DNA of 64,000 bases, from NCBI GenBank assembly GCA_026388155.1, contig JAPLKI010000025.1, positions 1 through 64,000 of the forward strand, read 5' to 3'. Both the position numbers and the translations under genes were made by a program. The notes beneath the pieces are model-generated. The model had not been told where the DNA came from. It saw only the letters and a list, made by a program, of their open reading frames with translations, and did not search any database. Positions 51,213 to 59,821 of this stretch are shown here, piece after piece. The stretch's first letter is position 1. The number at the start of each line of letters is the position of its first letter. The DNA is from Elusimicrobiota bacterium (GTDB taxonomy: Bacteria > Elusimicrobiota > Elusimicrobia > Elusimicrobiales > UBA9959).

Positions 51213-51842
51213 TCACTGTTTACTTCCCGCTATTTTTTTCAGCTCTTCGACTTCGGCGCGTAAAACTTTTATTTCCTCTCCGCACACGTCAAAAAGTTTG
51301 TTATGGTCCAGCTGGGAGGTTTCACCTATTCCGCCCTCTTTGGACTTGGCCGGCACGCCAAAAACAGTGGTTTGCGGCGGCACTTCTTTAAGCACCACAG
51401 AACCCGCGCCGATGCGCGAATGATCGCCTATGTTAATGGCGCCAAGTATTATAGCCCCGGAACCGATAACAACCCCGTTGCCTATTGTCGGGTGGCGCTT
51501 TTTTTTCTCAAGCGAAGTGCCGCCAAGCACTACGCCCTGGTACATCAGCACATCATCGCCTATCTCAGCGGTTTCGCCTATGACCACGCCCATGCCGTGG
51601 TCAATAAAAAACCTGCGGCCTATAGCGGCGCCGGGATGTATTTCAATGCCGGTAAACGCTCTTGCGGCGTGAGAAACAAGGCGCGCAGGCAAATAAAGCC
51701 CCAGCCTCCATAAAAAATGCGCCAGCCTGTGCGCCCACACGGCATGCAGGCCCGGATAACACAACAGAACTTCGACAAAACCCCTGGCAGCCGGGTCCTC
51801 TTTAAAAACCGTGCGCACATCCTCAATTATTCTTTTTATCAT
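51213..51842 (-). CDS. cysE: Serine O-acetyltransferase
   Basis: 209 residues. A short N-terminal helical domain is followed by a left-handed beta-helix of hexapeptide repeats ([31 protein letters not shown], then [31 protein letters not shown]). The active-site His residues are in FIDHGMG and in KKRHPTIG. It makes O-acetylserine for cysteine. The C-terminal tail is a coiled coil ([12 protein letters not shown]) rather than the usual Ile-terminated peptide. No cysK in the window. Confidence 0.95.
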
Positions 51843-51844
51843 TT

Positions 51845-52366
51845 TTATCTTCTGGCGTAGCGCGACGTCAGCGCGGCTTTTGCAAGCATTAATTTTGGGA
51901 TAGAAGGCTGTGAGCCTTCAAGACGCGCGGCGGACAGCGCGTAGAGCGTGAAGATATAGCGGTGCGTGCCTGAAGGCGGGCATGGGCCGCCGTAACCGGA
52001 CTCCCCAAAGCTGTTTTTAAGTTCACGGGACGGAGCCGGGAATTTTCCGGCTCTCTCCAGAGAATGTACGCCTGCCGGGATATCCACAACTATCCAATGA
52101 GTGAAATTGCCCATAGGCGCGTCGGGGTCTTCAAGAATAAGCGCGAAACTTTTAGTCCCTTCCGGCTCTCCGCTCCATTTAAGCCCGGGCGGAACATTTT
52201 TCCCGTCGCAGGTAAAAACAGCATCCAGCGCGTCTCCGTCTTTAACATCCTCCGAAAACAGCGTAAAAGCCGGAACACCGGGAACCGCAGCCGGTCTGTC
52301 AGTGTGAGCAGGCTGGCAGGATACGAACACCGCCGCTGCAAAAACCATGAAAGCTGTATTTTTCAC
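51845..52366 (-). CDS. PEBP-family (YbhB/YbcL) lipoprotein
   Basis: About 173 residues. GTG 52366 is preferred since GGAGGG lies just upstream of it; ATG 52381 is the alternative. The lipobox is FVSC. The PEBP fold shows in [46 protein letters not shown] and [20 protein letters not shown], which holds the ligand pocket. Function of bacterial members is unclear. It ends two bases before the cysE start codon region, in the same transcript. Confidence 0.92.
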
Positions 52367-52618
52367 AATATATCCCTCCATTGGCGGATAACGCGAAATG
52401 ACGGTTTTTCGGACCCTTAGCGGCTGTTCAACCGATTCCCGGCTATTCGTCTTAATCGTTAGTGATATTTTAGCAATTCAAAACCTTAAAGAAACCGTCG
52501 GGCGGCGTTTGCCGCCGCGCAAATTGACTTATGGGGTGAGATGTTGTTAAACTTCATTTAATACGCGCGTTCATATAATATCGCGTACCAAAGGGGGTTG
52601 CCGCTTATAAAGCTTTCC

Positions 52619-53551
52619 ATGAAAAATGAAAAAGAAGTTTTTGCGCTTAACTCGACTGTCATAGTATTTCTCTTTTTATACGCTCTAGGCAGCGGAGTTT
52701 TTTTCCCAAAAAAAGCTATGGGGCAAACCACGCCCGGCAATTCGGAGATAATCGCGCTTGCGGGCGGCGGCACGGTGCTCCAGCAGGACATTCTGGACTG
52801 GCAGGCGGCGCAGGCCTGCTACGGGGAAGACGCGTTAACTTCGCGCAGGGCGGGTTTCATGCGGATGTTCGAAGCCACTATACTGGAGGAAGTGCTGCGG
52901 CAACAGGCGGCGCGGCCCCTGACTCCCGAAGACTATAAAAAAGAAGTCGAGAGAATAGACTCCGAAACCCGCGCTCCGGATATTCTTGCCTGCATAAAAA
53001 AGCACTTCGGCGATGATACCGGCCGTTACAAGAGGATATTTATCAGGCCCATTCTTGTGCAGCAGTTTATACACGAGTTCGTGAAGTCCAACCCCAAGGT
53101 TCAGGAGAAGGCGTATGGTCTGCGCGCTAAAATCTCAACGGACGTGGTAAAAGGAGTTCCGTTTAAAGACATAGCTTCGGCGCCGGATGTCGCCTATTCC
53201 TCCGCGACATATTCGCTGGAAGCGGATACCCAGACCGCGGCGGGAGCCGCGCCCTGGGAGAGGTGGTCGCCTTTTGAAGCCGCGTTCATAGAAGAAAATC
53301 TGAAGGAGCTTGCTCCGGGACAGGCAAAACAAAATCCGATCGAAGACGAGACTGATATAAAATTCGTCAGGCTGATAAGCGTTGACGGCAAAAAATATTA
53401 CTTTGAATCTTTGACGGTTCCCAAGCTTACCACGGAGGGATATCTGAAGGCGATACCAAAGCTGCCGTGCAGGATAAACGACAAGGAACTGCATGATTGG
53501 GCAGCCCCCATAAGGAACCCGATACTGGTTGCGACGGAAATCGCGCCGTAA
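52619..53551 (+). CDS. Exported SurA-like protein (probable periplasmic chaperone)
   Basis: About 310 residues from ATG 52619 (TTG 52598 also in frame). An N-terminal membrane/export helix (VIVFLFLYALGSGVFF) is followed by a SurA-like helical segment (LQQDILDWQAAQA to EVLRQQAARPLTPEDYKKEVERI). A region then resembles a degenerate parvulin domain (GVPFKDIASAPDVAYSSATYSLE to IKFVRLISVDGKKYYF). The usual parvulin Gly-Gly-Asp-Leu-Gly motif is absent, so isomerase activity is doubtful. The spacer 52382-52618 before it holds no gene. Confidence 0.65.
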   Translation: MKNEKEVFALNSTVIVFLFLYALGSGVFFPKKAMGQTTPGNSEIIALAGGGTVLQQDILDWQAAQACYGEDALTSRRAGFMRMFEATILEEVLRQQAARPLTPEDYKKEVERIDSETRAPDILACIKKHFGDDTGRYKRIFIRPILVQQFIHEFVKSNPKVQEKAYGLRAKISTDVVKGVPFKDIASAPDVAYSSATYSLEADTQTAAGAAPWERWSPFEAAFIEENLKELAPGQAKQNPIEDETDIKFVRLISVDGKKYYFESLTVPKLTTEGYLKAIPKLPCRINDKELHDWAAPIRNPILVATEIAP

Positions 53552-53687
53552 ATCAGTAAGAATTCCCGAAAATCGGCCGTTTGACGGCGATCAGCCCTTA
53601 CGGCGCGGACACAGGCTTGCATGGATATTTTTATCCGGTTATCGTCTTTATCTTTCTTACATCACGACTGCGGCCGCTTCTATTGCC

Positions 53688-56420
53688 ATGCCTGAAAACT
53701 TTCACCTGACCGCGGCGGTTGTCATTCCCGCTTATAACGAAGCTAAGCGCATTTCAGCCACTTTGGAGGCTTTGACGTCTCATATCAGGCAGGGAACGCT
53801 CAAGCCGCTGGACATTCGCGAAATTATAATCTCGGATGACGGGTCCAACGACGAGACAGAGGCGGTCGTCCGAAAGTTCAAGCCCTCCCTGCCGAACCTG
53901 AAACTCATAAAGAGCAAAAGGAATTTTGGAAAGGGCCATGCCGTCAGGACCGGGTTTTTTCAAGCCAGCGCCGACTGGGTGCTGGTGGCTGACGCGGACA
54001 TGTCGACCCCCTGGACCGAGGCCCGCCGGCTGGCTTTGCATTGCCTTCAACAAAAGGCCTCCGGAGCCATCGGCTCCCGCGGCTTACCGGAAAGCAACAT
54101 CCTCAAGCACCAATCTTTTTTCAGGGAAAGGCTGGGAAAATCGTTCAACCTGCTTGTCCGCGCTTTAACCCGGCTGCCTTATACGGACACGCAATGCGGG
54201 TTTAAATTGTTTAAAAGACAGGAGGTTGAAAAGATTTTTGCCTCACTGAAGATCGACCGCTTTGCCTGGGACGTGGAATTCCTCGTTTTCTGCCGCCGGG
54301 CCGGCGTAAAGATAGTCGAGATCCCTGTGACCTGGGAAAACAGCGAGCAGACCCGGGTGAGGATGCTTCGCGACGGATTTGACATGGCGTTCTCGGTTTT
54401 GAGCATTTCTCCCGGAAACGCCGCCGTCCCCGCGTTGTTCGCCTGCGCGGCCTTCTTTGTGCCGCTTGCCGCGTACCTGCTCACCCTGGCGCCGACGGCC
54501 TTCTGGCAGGATTCAGGCATTTACCTGGCTGCCGCCAGAGAATTCGGTATTCCCTATCCGACGGGATTCCCCCTTTATGTGATCATGACGTACCTGGCCG
54601 GACTCGTTCCTATTGGGACTTTCGCCCAGCGGGTCCATACAGTTTCCGCTTTAGCCGGCGCGGGAACCTGCCTGGCCGTCTACCTGACCGTAGTCAGATT
54701 GTCAATTAAAGGGGAGCGGCCGGGTTTGATGGAGAGAAGCGCGGCGTTTATCATGGCGCTTGGCGCCGGATTTTCATTCGCCCTATGGTGCCAGGCGGTC
54801 AACTCCGAGGTTTATTCTCTCCACGCTTTCATCGTGGCCCTGATGCTTTATTTCCTTCTCAGGCTGGATGAAAATCCCTCCCTGGCCTGGTCCCTTTGGC
54901 CCCTGGCTTGCGTGGCGGGTCTTGGATTTGCCAATCATCCCATGATAGTGGGCATGCTGCCTGTTCTCTGTTTCGCCATATGGAAGCATAAGGACAAGGC
55001 AAGGACATGGCTGAAAGTCTTTCCCGTGTTCCTGCTCGCCGGGCTTCTGCCTTACGCTTACTTTCCATTCCGGTCAAGGGCCAATCCCCTGACCGACTGG
55101 GGAGACCCGGAAACGCTCGGTAAATTCATCCATCTGATTTCAGCCACTCATTGGACCGCTGAAAAGGCGTCTTATTCTTTTTTCGGCCACGATTTCTGGA
55201 TGCGGGTCGTTGATCTATTCCGGCTCTTTTTTCTTCAATTCGGGCCTGTTGCCATACCCCTCGGATTCATAGGCGGCATAGCCCTTCACAGGAAAAAATA
55301 TTTTTGGTTCTGGTGCCTTACAATAGCCTGCGGCTTTGCCCTGTTTCTGCCTATGTTATATCACCAGACCGCGGAATTCGAGAGTTGGTTCATACCTGCC
55401 TATATTGTTTTTACTATCGCGGCAGGCCAGGGGACTTTCGAAGCGATCCAGAGGATCAATGCCCGATGGCCGGATCGTCCGGGGATGCCCTGGGCCTTCC
55501 TGCTTGCTTTGGCACTGGTTTATCCGGGTTTGCTTTTGACCATAGCTTTGCCCGACGTGAACCGCGCGAAAGATTGGGATGCTGAAGATTATGCGACCAA
55601 TATCCTGCGCGGGGTCGGACCCGGCGCTATCTTCTTTATCAGCGGAGACAATCCATCAAGCACGGTCTTATACGAACAGGCCGCCTTGGATTTGCGGCGC
55701 GACGTGGCGGCGGTAAATATAGACGCTCTCTGGGCGCCGTGGTATCGCGACCACATGAACAAGAACCTGCATCTCTCCTGGGGCCGGCTCAGGGCGCCGC
55801 CTCCCGGTTCGGATTACTCCCCCGGAGATTATGCCATGGCCCTGATCCGCGGAAACCCGGGCAGGCCCGCCTACATTCTGATCCCCAAACATCTGGGTTC
55901 TCAGCCGAATGTTCAGTTTAGTCCGGCCGGGATGGTTTTTCGGATATCCGAAACTCATATTGAGGAGCCCGCATGGAAATGGGACTTCAAATTCCATGAT
56001 CCGGAAACGCTGATCCGCAAAAGACGGCCGGACCAGCGCCGGCTTATCAATGACATCCGCAGAGAGATGAAGCTGGGATTCCTGCAGGCTTATTCAACGG
56101 GTGGGGCGGAGTTCCTCCAGCGGAATGATTTTAAGGAAGCGGCCTTGCTTTACGCGAAGGCCGTTGAGCTTGCCCCGGATCGGGAGGATTTGCGCTTGCG
56201 CCTGGGCGTTGTCCTGGCTCAGATGGGCGACTATCCCGCGGCGCGCGGGGTTTTCACGGAATTGGTCAAACTGTTCCCGGAAAACTACCAGGCTTATTAC
56301 GACCTTGGCAATGTTCTGCTTGAGCTTGGGGATAAGCGGGAAGCGCAGGGCGCATATCTCAGGGCCCTGGAGATCGAGCCGGGTTTCGAGATGGCTAAAA
56401 AGGCTTTGGGCGGACTTTAG
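53688..56420 (+). CDS. Fusion of GT2 glycosyltransferase (DPM1/ALG5-like), DUF2723 membrane domain and TPRs
   Basis: About 910 residues. Residues 1-240 are a GT-A domain like dolichyl-phosphate glycosyltransferases: VVIPAYNEAKRI, IISDDGSNDETEAV, the DXD-like VADADMSTP and YTDTQCGFKLFKR. About ten membrane helices follow in a DUF2723 (GT117/GT-C) domain beginning FWQDSGIYLAAAREFGIPYPTGFPLYV. Two or three TPRs end the protein (AALLYAKAVELAPDREDLRLRLG). One polypeptide would thus make a lipid-linked sugar and transfer it outside the membrane. ATG 53688 fits the GT2 start; upstream in-frame codons to 53529 overlap the preceding gene. Confidence 0.88.
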   Translation: MPENFHLTAAVVIPAYNEAKRISATLEALTSHIRQGTLKPLDIREIIISDDGSNDETEAVVRKFKPSLPNLKLIKSKRNFGKGHAVRTGFFQASADWVLVADADMSTPWTEARRLALHCLQQKASGAIGSRGLPESNILKHQSFFRERLGKSFNLLVRALTRLPYTDTQCGFKLFKRQEVEKIFASLKIDRFAWDVEFLVFCRRAGVKIVEIPVTWENSEQTRVRMLRDGFDMAFSVLSISPGNAAVPALFACAAFFVPLAAYLLTLAPTAFWQDSGIYLAAAREFGIPYPTGFPLYVIMTYLAGLVPIGTFAQRVHTVSALAGAGTCLAVYLTVVRLSIKGERPGLMERSAAFIMALGAGFSFALWCQAVNSEVYSLHAFIVALMLYFLLRLDENPSLAWSLWPLACVAGLGFANHPMIVGMLPVLCFAIWKHKDKARTWLKVFPVFLLAGLLPYAYFPFRSRANPLTDWGDPETLGKFIHLISATHWTAEKASYSFFGHDFWMRVVDLFRLFFLQFGPVAIPLGFIGGIALHRKKYFWFWCLTIACGFALFLPMLYHQTAEFESWFIPAYIVFTIAAGQGTFEAIQRINARWPDRPGMPWAFLLALALVYPGLLLTIALPDVNRAKDWDAEDYATNILRGVGPGAIFFISGDNPSSTVLYEQAALDLRRDVAAVNIDALWAPWYRDHMNKNLHLSWGRLRAPPPGSDYSPGDYAMALIRGNPGRPAYILIPKHLGSQPNVQFSPAGMVFRISETHIEEPAWKWDFKFHDPETLIRKRRPDQRRLINDIRREMKLGFLQAYSTGGAEFLQRNDFKEAALLYAKAVELAPDREDLRLRLGVVLAQMGDYPAARGVFTELVKLFPENYQAYYDLGNVLLELGDKREAQGAYLRALEIEPGFEMAKKALGGL

Positions 56421-56441
56421 GGTTCGCGTCAGAATAATATG

Positions 56442-56690
56442 AGCCGCAGACAGAACCCGAGTTGAAGCGGCTATCGGCCTGGACGGTAACGGCGGGAGGA
56501 GTTCTCTGACGCTTGCCCTGAAAAGGCTCGCTAAAGATGAGTTTACCGGGAATGTAAGGGCCTGTAATTTTTTCACGACATCGCCCGCCCCCGCCATGCC
56601 CGGGGCGGTCAGGTTCAGGCGGAAGCCATACGCTTTTCCTCCCCAAAGCCAAAGTTTTATATAATTTTTACATCGGCCTACCCGCCTAAG
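56442..56690 (+). other. Non-coding spacer with a possible gene remnant
   Basis: The 56421-56700 spacer has a 60-odd-codon open frame without a start (VEAAIGLDGNGGRSS, then LALKRLAKDEFTGN) ending at TAA near 56661. Codon use looks coding-like, but no homologue is recognised. It may be a decayed 3' end of a lost gene. AAGGAG at 56691 belongs to the next gene. Confidence 0.3.
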
Positions 56691-56700
56691 GAGAATTAAA

Positions 56701-57705
56701 ATGGGATTCAATCTGAAAAACAGGAACTTCCTCAAAGAACTTGACTTTACAAAGGAAGAATTGGTTTTCCTTCTGAAATTGTCCAAAGACTTCAAAGCCG
56801 CGAAATACGCGGGCGCCGAACAGCAGAGACTTACCGGCAAGAACATAGCCCTGATCTTTGAAAAAAGCTCCACCCGCACGCGCTGCGCTTTTGAAGTGGC
56901 CGCGCTCGACCAGGGAGCCCATGTGACCTACCTTGAACCGACAGGCAGCCAGATGGGACACAAGGAAACGGTTAAGGATACCGCCCGTGTTCTGGGCAGG
57001 ATGTATGACGGCATCGAATACCGCGGTTTCGGTCAGGCGATAGTGGAAGAACTGGCCAGGTTCGCCGGCGTTCCCGTATGGAACGGACTGACGAACGAAT
57101 GGCACCCGACCCAGATGATGGCCGATGTGCTGACCATGACGGAGCACTCTCCCAAGCCGCTTGAGAAAATCTCTTATGCCTATGTCGGAGATGCCCGCTT
57201 CAACATGGGCCGCTCCCTGCTGGTGATCGGCTCGATACTCGGCATGGATGTGCGTATAGGCGCGCCCAAGGGCCTGCAGCCCGATGCCGGGCTTGTAGCT
57301 ACCTGCAAAGAAATATCCAGGATTTCCGGCGCCCGCATTACCGTCACCGATAAGGCCGCCCAGGCCGTTAAGGGCGTGGACTTCATACATACCGACGTGT
57401 GGGTCTCGATGGGCGAACCCAAGGAAGTGTGGGCGGAGCGCATAAAGCTGCTGAAACCCTACCAGGTCAATCCGGTGCTCATGAAAAAGTCCGGCAACAA
57501 GAACGTGAAGTTCATGCACTGCCTGCCGGCTTTCCACAACGCGGACACCAAAGTCGGAAAACAGGTATCCGAGCAGTTCGGGCTGCGCAACGGCATTGAG
57601 GTTACCGAAGATGTTTTCGAATCAAAAGCCTGCATCGCTTTCGATCAGGCGGAGAACCGTATGCACACGATCAAAGCCGTAATGGTCGCAACTCTCGGAC
57701 GCTGA
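56701..57705 (+). CDS. argF: Ornithine carbamoyltransferase
   Basis: 334 residues. The carbamoyl-phosphate motif is [10 protein letters not shown], followed by [15 protein letters not shown], the ornithine-side segment DVWVSMGEP, and [10 protein letters not shown] with the catalytic Cys. The [14 protein letters not shown] tail is typical. It makes citrulline from ornithine and carbamoyl phosphate. Length and motifs also fit catabolic ArcB; no arcA, arcC or other arg gene is in the window to decide. AAGGAG lies ten bases before the ATG and a terminator follows. Confidence 0.96.
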
Positions 57706-57864: not shown

Positions 57865-58797
57865 TTATAGAAGTTTGAATATTTCCAGCGTACCATCCAC
57901 TATCCTGAAACCGTAGCCGGGCTCCATCTCCGGATAGGTCACCCCGGGCGGCATTAAATCCGCGCGGTTCAGAAAATACAACCCGTCCGCCCCCACGGGG
58001 GACAATATCACCACCAGGTTTTCGGAGAACCTGGCGCCGCCTTTACCCTGGAGAAGTTCATTGCCGTAGACCAGCTTATAGGGCCTGCCCAGCCTGACAT
58101 CCAGGCCTTTACCCGCCACCGCGTTTCCAAGCTGAGCTAAAGTGGAGGCAAACACCTTCACGCGGCCGCAGGTTATCTCTATCCTGCTGGAGGGGATGTC
58201 GGTGAGAGCGGCGTAGATCTTCACGGTAAGCTCATCGCCTCCTATAATGACTTTCTTTAAACCGCTCGTAATGAAGGTATTGATGATATCCGTGGCTTTG
58301 ACAAAATAGTTTTCCGTGGGGCCGGCGGAAAGGATCAGAAAGAACCTTTCCTTATCGGCGCAGGACTGGCCTCCGTTAGGGCAATTCGCGGCGGTGTAGC
58401 CGCTGAATTTAATGCTGGCGCCGTGCGGGGTCCGGAAAGACAGGCCGGCGTCGATATAAGAGTTGAGGATAGAGTCAAGTTTAAACGAATACACCACATT
58501 TCCGGCGCGCCCATCGGGAACAGCAGTTGCGGACTTCCCGGACCTTTCGGTCAGCGGCAGGGCCTTTGGAGCTTGAAAAATATCCCCCATATATTTAAAA
58601 AACGCATCCATCTCCGCCACAGATTCACCTTCGACACTGGAAGCGTGGGGAGTCGGCAGGGAAATTTCGGTACTGGCGTTAACAAGGCCTAAAGCGGATA
58701 GATCCACGGCTTCTTTATCCGGCCCGGCCGCGTTCAACATTCCGATCGAAACGGCGAGCATCGCCGCTGCCGCCAGAATCGTGCCTGTAAGTTTCAT
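57865..58797 (-). CDS. Secreted protein, tandem paralogue 1, unknown function
   Basis: About 310 residues. ATG 58797 is chosen because AAGGAG lies ten bases upstream; GTG 58815 is in frame. Signal peptide GTILAAAAMLAVSIGMLNAA. It aligns over its length with the product of 58892-59821: FFKYMGDIFQAPKALP, NCPNGGQSCADKERFFLIL, DIINTFITSG, LVYGNELLQGKGGARF and YPEMEPGYGFRI. Two conserved Cys in the NCPNGGQSC segment could form a disulfide. Family not recognised; repeated TonB- or SORL-like features are absent. Confidence 0.8.
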   Translation of the reverse strand: MKLTGTILAAAAMLAVSIGMLNAAGPDKEAVDLSALGLVNASTEISLPTPHASSVEGESVAEMDAFFKYMGDIFQAPKALPLTERSGKSATAVPDGRAGNVVYSFKLDSILNSYIDAGLSFRTPHGASIKFSGYTAANCPNGGQSCADKERFFLILSAGPTENYFVKATDIINTFITSGLKKVIIGGDELTVKIYAALTDIPSSRIEITCGRVKVFASTLAQLGNAVAGKGLDVRLGRPYKLVYGNELLQGKGGARFSENLVVILSPVGADGLYFLNRADLMPPGVTYPEMEPGYGFRIVDGTLEIFKLL

Positions 58798-58859
58798 CTC
58801 CCGCTCCTTATACACCGCCTCGAACTTGATCCTGATCCACCGGGCCTATTCTCGAATAT

Positions 58860-58891: not shown

Positions 58892-59821
58892 CTACAACCT
58901 TGAAATTTCAAGCATACCTCCGCTTATCCGAAATTTGTAGCCGGCCTCCATGGAAGGGTAGCTTACGCCGCCCGGGCTCATCATGTCGGCCGCGCTGAAA
59001 ATATAATAATTGGAAGCGTCCACAACAGGGAAAGGCATCATCAGAATAAGCATCTTGCCGGTGAATGCAGCTCCGCCCTTTACCTGCGTCAGTTCATTGC
59101 CGTAGGCGAGCTTATAGGCCCGGGAAAGATTCACATCCACGCCCTTGTCGGCAATGGCCGACCCCATCTGGCCAAGTGTGCCGGCAAATATTTTGGAGGA
59201 GCCCTTTTTCACCTCTATAATGCTTTTTTCAGGGTGCGATACCACGGCGTCCACCAGAACAGTGAAAGTCTCTCCGTCTATAGTTAAATCCCTGGACCCG
59301 CTGTAAAGGAGGAAAACATTGATTATGTCCATAACCCTGGCAAACTGCGTTTGGCCGTTGTCAGGCGTAAGCGTCAGAAAGAACTTTTCCTTTTCGTCGC
59401 AGGAATTGCCGCCGTCCGGACAATTGGTGGCCTTGGTGCCGCTTATGTGGACGAAAGCGCCTTTTGAGGTTTTAAAACCGAAAGCGGGCATAAGATACTG
59501 ATTTTTCACCTTCCCAAGTTCTATGGTGTATAGAGCCGCCTCTTTCAACACTGAAGCCGGCTCATTGACTCCGGACACTTCAGGCACAGCCCTCGGGGCG
59601 CTGAACATGGAATTCAGGTAATTAAAGAAAGGGGCCGCATCGCCGGATCGCGGCGCAGCCGCCGGGACAACCGGTATGGGCACAGCCGCTTCCGACGCCT
59701 TAATGCCTGAGATATCCAACCGTGTGTCAAAGGACCGGTTTTCAGCTTCCCCGGCCATAAGCGCGCCGGAGAACAAAACCGGAACTGCCGCAACAATAAT
59801 AGTTCTGATAGTCTTTTTCAT
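58892..59821 (-). CDS. Secreted protein, tandem paralogue 2, unknown function
   Basis: 309 residues with a signal peptide (IIVAAVPVLFSGALMAG). Shared blocks with paralogue 1 include FFNYLNSMFSAPRAVP, NCPDGGNSCDEKEKFFLTL, LAYGNELTQVKGGAAF and YPSMEAGYKFRI. Roughly 40 percent of positions look identical by eye. AAGGA precedes the ATG. TATAAT and TATAAC boxes lie at 59839-59850, and the CCTTGAC palindrome sits about 34 bases further upstream. Confidence 0.8.
   Translation of the reverse strand: MKKTIRTIIVAAVPVLFSGALMAGEAENRSFDTRLDISGIKASEAAVPIPVVPAAAPRSGDAAPFFNYLNSMFSAPRAVPEVSGVNEPASVLKEAALYTIELGKVKNQYLMPAFGFKTSKGAFVHISGTKATNCPDGGNSCDEKEKFFLTLTPDNGQTQFARVMDIINVFLLYSGSRDLTIDGETFTVLVDAVVSHPEKSIIEVKKGSSKIFAGTLGQMGSAIADKGVDVNLSRAYKLAYGNELTQVKGGAAFTGKMLILMMPFPVVDASNYYIFSAADMMSPGGVSYPSMEAGYKFRISGGMLEISRL

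Follow-up and report, generated by a model that had tools for sequence, protein, structure and literature searches.

A rare single-chain fusion of a GT2 glycosyltransferase, a TMEM260-like GT-C domain and TPRs in Elusimicrobiota

One gene in a 64,000-nucleotide stretch of Elusimicrobiota DNA (the window) encodes three known parts in a single chain: an N-terminal GT2 domain, a TMEM260-like GT-C membrane domain, and C-terminal TPRs. The fusion is a real yet rare new combination of these parts, and its likely role is the synthesis of a sugar donor and the transfer of the sugar in the periplasm. The gene and its features are as follows.

53688..56420 (+): GT2-TMEM260-like-TPR fusion, 910 aa (single frame, Pfam domains, full-length homologues in genomes G010 and G229)
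53715..54407 (+): GT2 domain, aa about 10-240, polyprenyl-phosphate glycosyltransferase type, predicted cytoplasmic (PF00535; relatives align over aa 9-243; Foldseek)
54405..55550 (+): GT-C membrane domain, aa about 240-621, read as 11 TM helices (PF11028; 9rql; hydropathy)
54501..54581 (+): predicted first periplasmic loop, aa 272-298 (D275 kept, E278 replaced by I, H290 by Y)
55143..55154 (+): altered RxxY motif, aa 486-489, A..W in the fusion (comparison with other PF11028 members)
56103..56402 (+): C-terminal TPRs, aa about 806-905, predicted periplasmic (Pfam, structure model, hydropathy)

The frame runs without interruption across the 910 aa and is open upstream to a possible TTG start at 53529. 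Pfam places on it, above curated cut-offs, Glycos_transf_2 (PF00535; aa 11-183, 2.2e-23), the TMEM260-like family PF11028, which we take to be the former DUF2723 (aa 275-437, 3.1e-25; 89.4 bits against a cut-off of 24.2), and TPR models at about aa 806-905. Among the matches listed, the same single chain occurs in three of 340 Elusimicrobiota genomes, which belong to two families: the window's own genome (G000), G010 (a 923-aa frame, about 64-65% identical to the G000 fusion) and G229 (a 936-aa frame, about 63-64% identical). The homologues align with the G000 fusion over the full length at 63-65% identity; 462 of 910 positions are identical in all three, and this three-way identity is alike across the GT2 (104/240), GT-C (220/400), linker (80/150) and TPR (58/120) parts. 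The original prediction of a single polypeptide with GT2, DUF2723 and TPRs is thus confirmed by one open frame, Pfam domains over cut-off and two full-length homologues. It had also named split genes in homologues as the sign of a local frame accident; these were looked for, and because both homologues carry the undivided chain, such an accident is rejected. A frame accident, or an assembly chimera of two neighbouring genes, would suit the rarity of the fusion (3/340) but is exceedingly improbable given three independent assemblies, alignment over the full length and similar conservation in every domain.

PF11028 itself is present in 151/340 Elusimicrobiota genomes. No full-length fusion is among the matches listed for the sampled genomes of Acidobacteriota (277), Bdellovibrionota (270) and Planctomycetota (274), in searches that scored two to three candidates per genome at strict E-values and that a very divergent fusion could escape; a pattern scan of genome contigs used two peptides only. 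The long frames inspected beside GT2 or PF11028 matches (L078, L079 and the 18 regions L188-L205, a set outside the frames of more than 1000 aa in G167, G191, G183, G195 and G209) hold no further GT2-PF11028 fusion; the only fusions among them are those of L188 and L189 with PMT_2.

Simple vertical descent is unlikely between G000 and G229: their fusions are 63% identical, whereas 31 reciprocal best hits, sampled from part of each genome, have a median identity of 36% (3 of the 31, the fusion among them, reach 63). Vertical descent would better fit the pairs G000-G010 (64% for the fusion, median 56% over 54 reciprocal best hits) and G010-G229 (58%, median 46% over 25). The sister fusions also differ between trees, G000 joining G229 in the GT-C tree (96/83) and G010 in the GT2 tree (82).

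Missing GT2 catalytic residues, which the original prediction had listed as evidence that would count against it, are ruled out by a 13-row alignment in which the motifs DDGS, NxGKG, DAD, TP, DTQCGFK and FAWDVE are intact and nearly invariant. The domain has the GT2 fold with the DxD and downstream motifs of polyprenyl-phosphate glycosyltransferases (DPM1/ALG5/ArnC/GtrB type); we take its motifs to look ALG5-like. NCBIfam equivalog models match it far below their cut-offs and give it no named function; mannose by analogy is not adopted here, and the label "DPM1-type" in the original prediction is too specific as to the sugar. The remainder of that claim, in which a cytoplasmic lipid-linked-donor synthase is joined to a GT-C facing outward and to TPRs in the periplasm, is supported by hydropathy and model matches. 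By sequence, the nearest solved relatives of the whole GT2 part are ArnC and archaeal Dol-P-Man synthase; human TMEM260 (9rql) matches aa 254-694 of the fusion at 5.6e-22 in a PDB sequence search. With a structure model built from 13 sequences (mean pLDDT 65.8, pTM 0.39; good in the GT2 and TPR parts, poor in the GT-C part), rows 1-17 of the Foldseek matches listed are Dol-P-Man synthase (DPMS), ArnC or GtrB; absences from the VIA and Foldseek listings were not counted as evidence. The hydropathy and charge pattern fits a predicted topology of 11 TM helices with the N-terminus (GT2) inside and the C-terminus (TPRs) outside, the orientation reported as experimentally shown for the termini of the M. 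tuberculosis PMT (PMC12331936).

In a 66-row tree made with a quick method, the three fused GT2s are monophyletic (SH-aLRT 99) inside a larger clade of 18 rows (100). The remaining rows of that clade are from loci of Planctomycetota, Bdellovibrionota or Pseudomonadota and from genomes of the searches in other phyla; no standalone Elusimicrobiota GT2 of that tree falls in the 18-row clade. Because its clade mates are in other phyla and none is a standalone GT2 of the phylum itself, the GT2 half looks imported from outside Elusimicrobiota. GT2 domains of this family are also joined to a PMT-type GT-C in another Elusimicrobiota genome, G243 (L093/L058; PMT_2 3.8e-15), and in Planctomycetota (L189, PMT_2 1.2e-11; L188, 0.001, below the PMT_2 cut-off); these fusions branch elsewhere on the GT2 tree than the GT2-PF11028 fusions.

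L093:211-2583: one-chain GT2-PMT_2 fusion, Elusimicrobiota
L189:1208-3637: one-chain GT2-PMT_2 fusion, Planctomycetota
L188:1271-2755: one-chain GT2-PMT_2 fusion, Planctomycetota

Furthermore, a large ORF with at least seven predicted TM helices adjoins the GT2 gene in six of the nine bacterial GT2-only loci counted (L063, L065-L068 and L070 out of L063-L071; L064, L069 and L071 are without one). PMT_2 exceeds its cut-off in the neighbour at L063 and falls just short in L065 and L066; the neighbours in L067, L068 and L070 match nothing. Taken together, the GT2-PMT fusions and the TM neighbours indicate that coupling of this GT2 family with membrane enzymes is recurrent. GT-C frames related to that of G243 (28-32% identity) are also found in Elusimicrobiota loci L011-L014.

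The fused GT-Cs form one clade (100/100) on a long branch. Compared with 54 other PF11028 members, all three fusions keep the first-loop catalytic Asp of GT-Cs, D275 (D in 53/54), as well as E374, R462, W471, E565, D634 and D654. Other positions are replaced in the fusions: E278 by I (E in 48/54 others), H290 by Y (H in 53/54), N317 by H (N in 50/54), R486 by A (R in all 54 examined), and Y489 by W (Y in 47/54). Of 59 rows, 52 have D-x-G-E or D-x-G-D as the first-loop motif and four have D-x-G-I, namely the three fusions and L081 (three rows are unread). L081:2770-4938 (G186) is an unfused PF11028 protein that keeps the R of RxxY and joins the fused GT-C clade only through long branches. In a published account, the first-loop Asp is considered critical in GT-Cs, and any change of D77 or E78 abolishes the activity of a yeast PMT (PMC7801869); E278 of the fusion is a possible counterpart of that E78.

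Since all three fusions have lost several residues that nearly every other family member shares, mannosyltransferase activity is not transferable to them, and the fusion GT-C is best described, on its sequence, as a divergent relative of TMEM260 and is not filed as an O-mannosyltransferase. The loss of E278, H290, R486 and Y489 would also suit a GT-C half that now serves as a scaffold, lipid-sugar carrier or regulator and keeps the GT2 at the membrane, the donor being used by other GT-Cs, for which G000 offers candidates (it has four PF11028 matches, and L002 is another GT-C of the family there). We regard this alternative as unlikely, though deserving of weight: the fusions retain D275, E374, R462, W471 and E565, and few stretches are as well conserved as the altered loop, where 22 of the 27 positions of aa 272-298 are identical in the three fusions against 462/910 overall. 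This degree of conservation argues for a changed, probably working site rather than decay, and the altered loop suggests a changed donor or acceptor, not classical O-mannosylation. The proposal of a protein O-glycosylation machine therefore survives in its architecture of donor synthesis and transfer, and is weakened by E278I, H290Y, R486A and Y489W in all three copies and by a chain that includes no flippase. Elsewhere in the family, genomes of family f29 carry runs of two or three neighbouring PF11028-like genes (L083, L082, L084, L085 and L087).

A second gene accompanies the fusion, lying directly upstream of it in 3/3 fusion genomes.

52598..53551 (+): SurA/PrsA/parvulin-like secreted or anchored protein with two invariant Cys, the partner (adjacency, family alignment, fold match)

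The original prediction had called the fusion self-contained, a description overstated in view of this neighbour and of the lack of a flippase in the chain. Homologues of the partner are found in 22/340 Elusimicrobiota genomes, and two cysteines are invariant in a 20-row alignment of the family. For a partner model made from 3 sequences (pTM 0.59), the eight best VIA rows read as PPIase/SurA/PrsA-type entries (Z 5.0-8.9; row 3, YRVJ-YACD, is presumably such an entry), and the best Foldseek match is the PPIase 8hm3 (E 8.5e-3). Rotamase_3, the parvulin Pfam domain, is touched by 2 of 20 partner members (best E 0.017).

When the neighbour is defined as the next same-strand ORF of more than 300 aa, the 22 partner genomes show the fusion in 3 (G000, G010, G229), a Kelch protein in 7 (G055, G044, G039, G189, G195, G025, G034), a beta-helix/G8 protein in 1 (G045), an Lcl_C protein in 2 (G047, G040), a Schlafen-like gene in 1 (G041), and nothing assigned in 5 (G004 and G183, both at contig ends, G015, G185, G190); surface-type proteins, Kelch or other, thus follow the partner in 10/22 loci. 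In another 3/22 (G204, G230, G232) an STT3-like enzyme and the partner share a single long frame, the partner at its C-terminal end.

L128:4553-7414 (G204), L129:3892-7026 (G230), L130:3594-6557 (G232): STT3/AglB-like enzymes (PF02516, PF22627), each frame ending in the partner domain
L127:170-7261, L123:3478-10500, L126:3-6917, L132:3288-10001: giant Kelch/Fn3/beta-helix surface-type proteins after the partner gene

L062:8694-11117 belongs with these STT3/AglB-like enzymes, and in G229 the gene immediately downstream of the fusion is STT3-like. STT3 was rejected as a constant partner: PF02516 is present in G229 and the three partner-fusion genomes (4/9 genomes examined) and absent from G000 and G010. 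Three of the giant surface-type proteins (L127, L123 and L126) have an FGE-sulfatase-like end.

The partner tree, which took in 20 of the 22 genomes, places G000 in an 11-row clade (100/99), while G010 and G229 fall together in a separate 6-row clade (99/98); the fusion thus adjoins two partner lineages. Between G000 and G229 the fusion is 63% identical and the partner 40%. Repeated association or partner replacement would explain this mismatch; an old linkage with losses could do so as well.

In the window's own genome, fusion and partner lie within a segment that is missing from a congener, G002.

51843..56633 (no strand): segment of ~4.8 kb, absent at the corresponding place in G002 (flanking genes side by side there)

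The segment contains the partner, the fusion and a gene that we take to be PEBP-like. Its flanking genes, at 51213-51842 (presumably serine acetyltransferase-like, cysE-like) and 56701-57705 (presumably ornithine carbamoyltransferase-like), are 86% and 91% identical to their G002 counterparts, and the last bases matching G002 are window 56634-56685 (35 stretches of the G002 genome were read in this comparison). Since the two flanking genes adjoin each other in G002, about 94 bp apart, the segment is accessory, equally readable as an insertion in G000 or a loss in G002; its GC content does not stand out. Further along the window, two adjacent genes on the minus strand (57865-58815 and 58892-59821) encode secreted proteins that look similar by eye.

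A tentative reading, which we hold to be plausible without quite giving it even chances, is that the fusion is a bifunctional inner-membrane enzyme with a foldase-like partner. The N-terminal GT2 would move one sugar, in the cytoplasm, from a nucleotide-sugar onto polyprenyl phosphate; the lipid-linked sugar would be flipped by a protein outside the fusion chain; and the fused GT-C would pick the sugar up at the outer leaflet and transfer it to an acceptor. The most likely acceptor is Ser/Thr in an exported protein that the periplasmic TPRs would hold. The SurA/PrsA-like partner would present or fold the same client. TPRs as substrate recruiters are a published proposal for human TMTC and TMEM260 (PMC11292533). 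Alternatively, both activities work but the sugar goes to a lipid, LPS or a surface glycan, not to a protein, as in ArnC/ArnT or GtrB-type decoration. ArnC and GtrB are indeed among the nearest solved GT2 relatives, and members of this GT2 family elsewhere lie beside, or are fused to, PMT_2-type GT-Cs; the C-terminal TPRs and the SurA/PrsA-like partner nevertheless point to protein clients, as does a GT-C that resembles TMEM260, in humans a family of protein O-mannosyltransferases, and a glycan acceptor seems rather improbable.

If the bifunctional enzyme acts on exported proteins, giant Kelch/Fn3/beta-helix surface proteins would be its best candidate clients. Giant Kelch frames are found in all three fusion genomes: 5926, 3682, 2155 and 2023 aa in G000, 6998 aa in G010 on the same contig as the fusion, and 4103 aa in G229. 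The 3682- and 5926-aa frames of G000 lie at about 285900-309900 of contig C22. Among 34 genomes (G000's own and its relatives), Kelch motif counts at 1e-8 are 63 in G000, 41 in G007, 26 in G010, 2 each in G015 and G019, and 1 each in G017 and G018, with none in the other 27, congeners G001 and G002 included. G007, rich in Kelch motifs though the fusion has no match there, counts against exclusivity, and the co-occurrence of Kelch and fusion covers three genomes and was looked for after the partner pattern had appeared. Surface beta-propeller proteins are nonetheless better candidate targets than the secreted TPR proteins first suggested, for which nothing was found in support. A broader and speculative picture, which we consider unlikely, is a mobile module for surface-protein glycosylation, in which a SurA/PrsA-like foldase domain is paired interchangeably with outward-facing glycosyltransferases, as a fusion with STT3-like enzymes in some genomes and as the neighbour of the donor-making and donor-spending chain in others. 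Giant beta-propellers would be decorated as they are exported, with intramolecular channelling of the sugar across the membrane and a new donor or acceptor specificity of the reshaped GT-C site.

How a lipid donor finds its user is hard to study, and to our knowledge the enzymes that load and spend lipid donors are separate in known pathways. One chain that does both would make coupling across the membrane directly testable, and the association of a foldase-like domain with two types of membrane glycosyltransferase would point to bacterial coupling of folding with glycosylation for giant surface proteins. No paper on GT2-DUF2723 or GT2-PMT fusions was found in the open-access literature searched; the nearest published precedent found there is M. 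tuberculosis Ppm1 (Rv2051c), in which an Lnt domain is fused to a PPM synthase domain and the two are split into neighbouring genes in relatives (PMC3460810). As described there, Ppm1 resembles the fusion in joining a lipid-linked-sugar synthase to a membrane enzyme of exported-protein modification, and differs in what the synthase is joined to, an N-acyltransferase instead of a glycosyltransferase able to use the donor. TMEM260 (PF11028, CAZy GT117), an ER protein O-mannosyltransferase, is like the fusion in its GT-C (aligned with aa 254-694 of the fusion), C-terminal TPRs and first-loop Asp; the fusion, in contrast, is bacterial, has an extra N-terminal GT2, and carries replacements of the E of DxGE, the first-loop H, and the R and Y of RxxY in all three copies. 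As DUF2723 with TPRs is already the usual TMEM260 layout, only the GT2 is an addition to it. Archaeal Dol-P-Man synthase, ArnC and GtrB have the GT2 fold and motifs in common with the fusion, which differs in the full GT-C domain behind its GT2. The GT2-PMT_2 fusions of G243 (L093) and Planctomycetota (L188, L189) have the same GT2 family N-terminal to a GT-C; theirs, however, is of another family, and TPRs are not among their listed Pfam matches (L188 reaches its contig end). Each part of the fusion is therefore known; the join to GT2, the reshaped GT-C site and the foldase-like neighbour are, to us, new.
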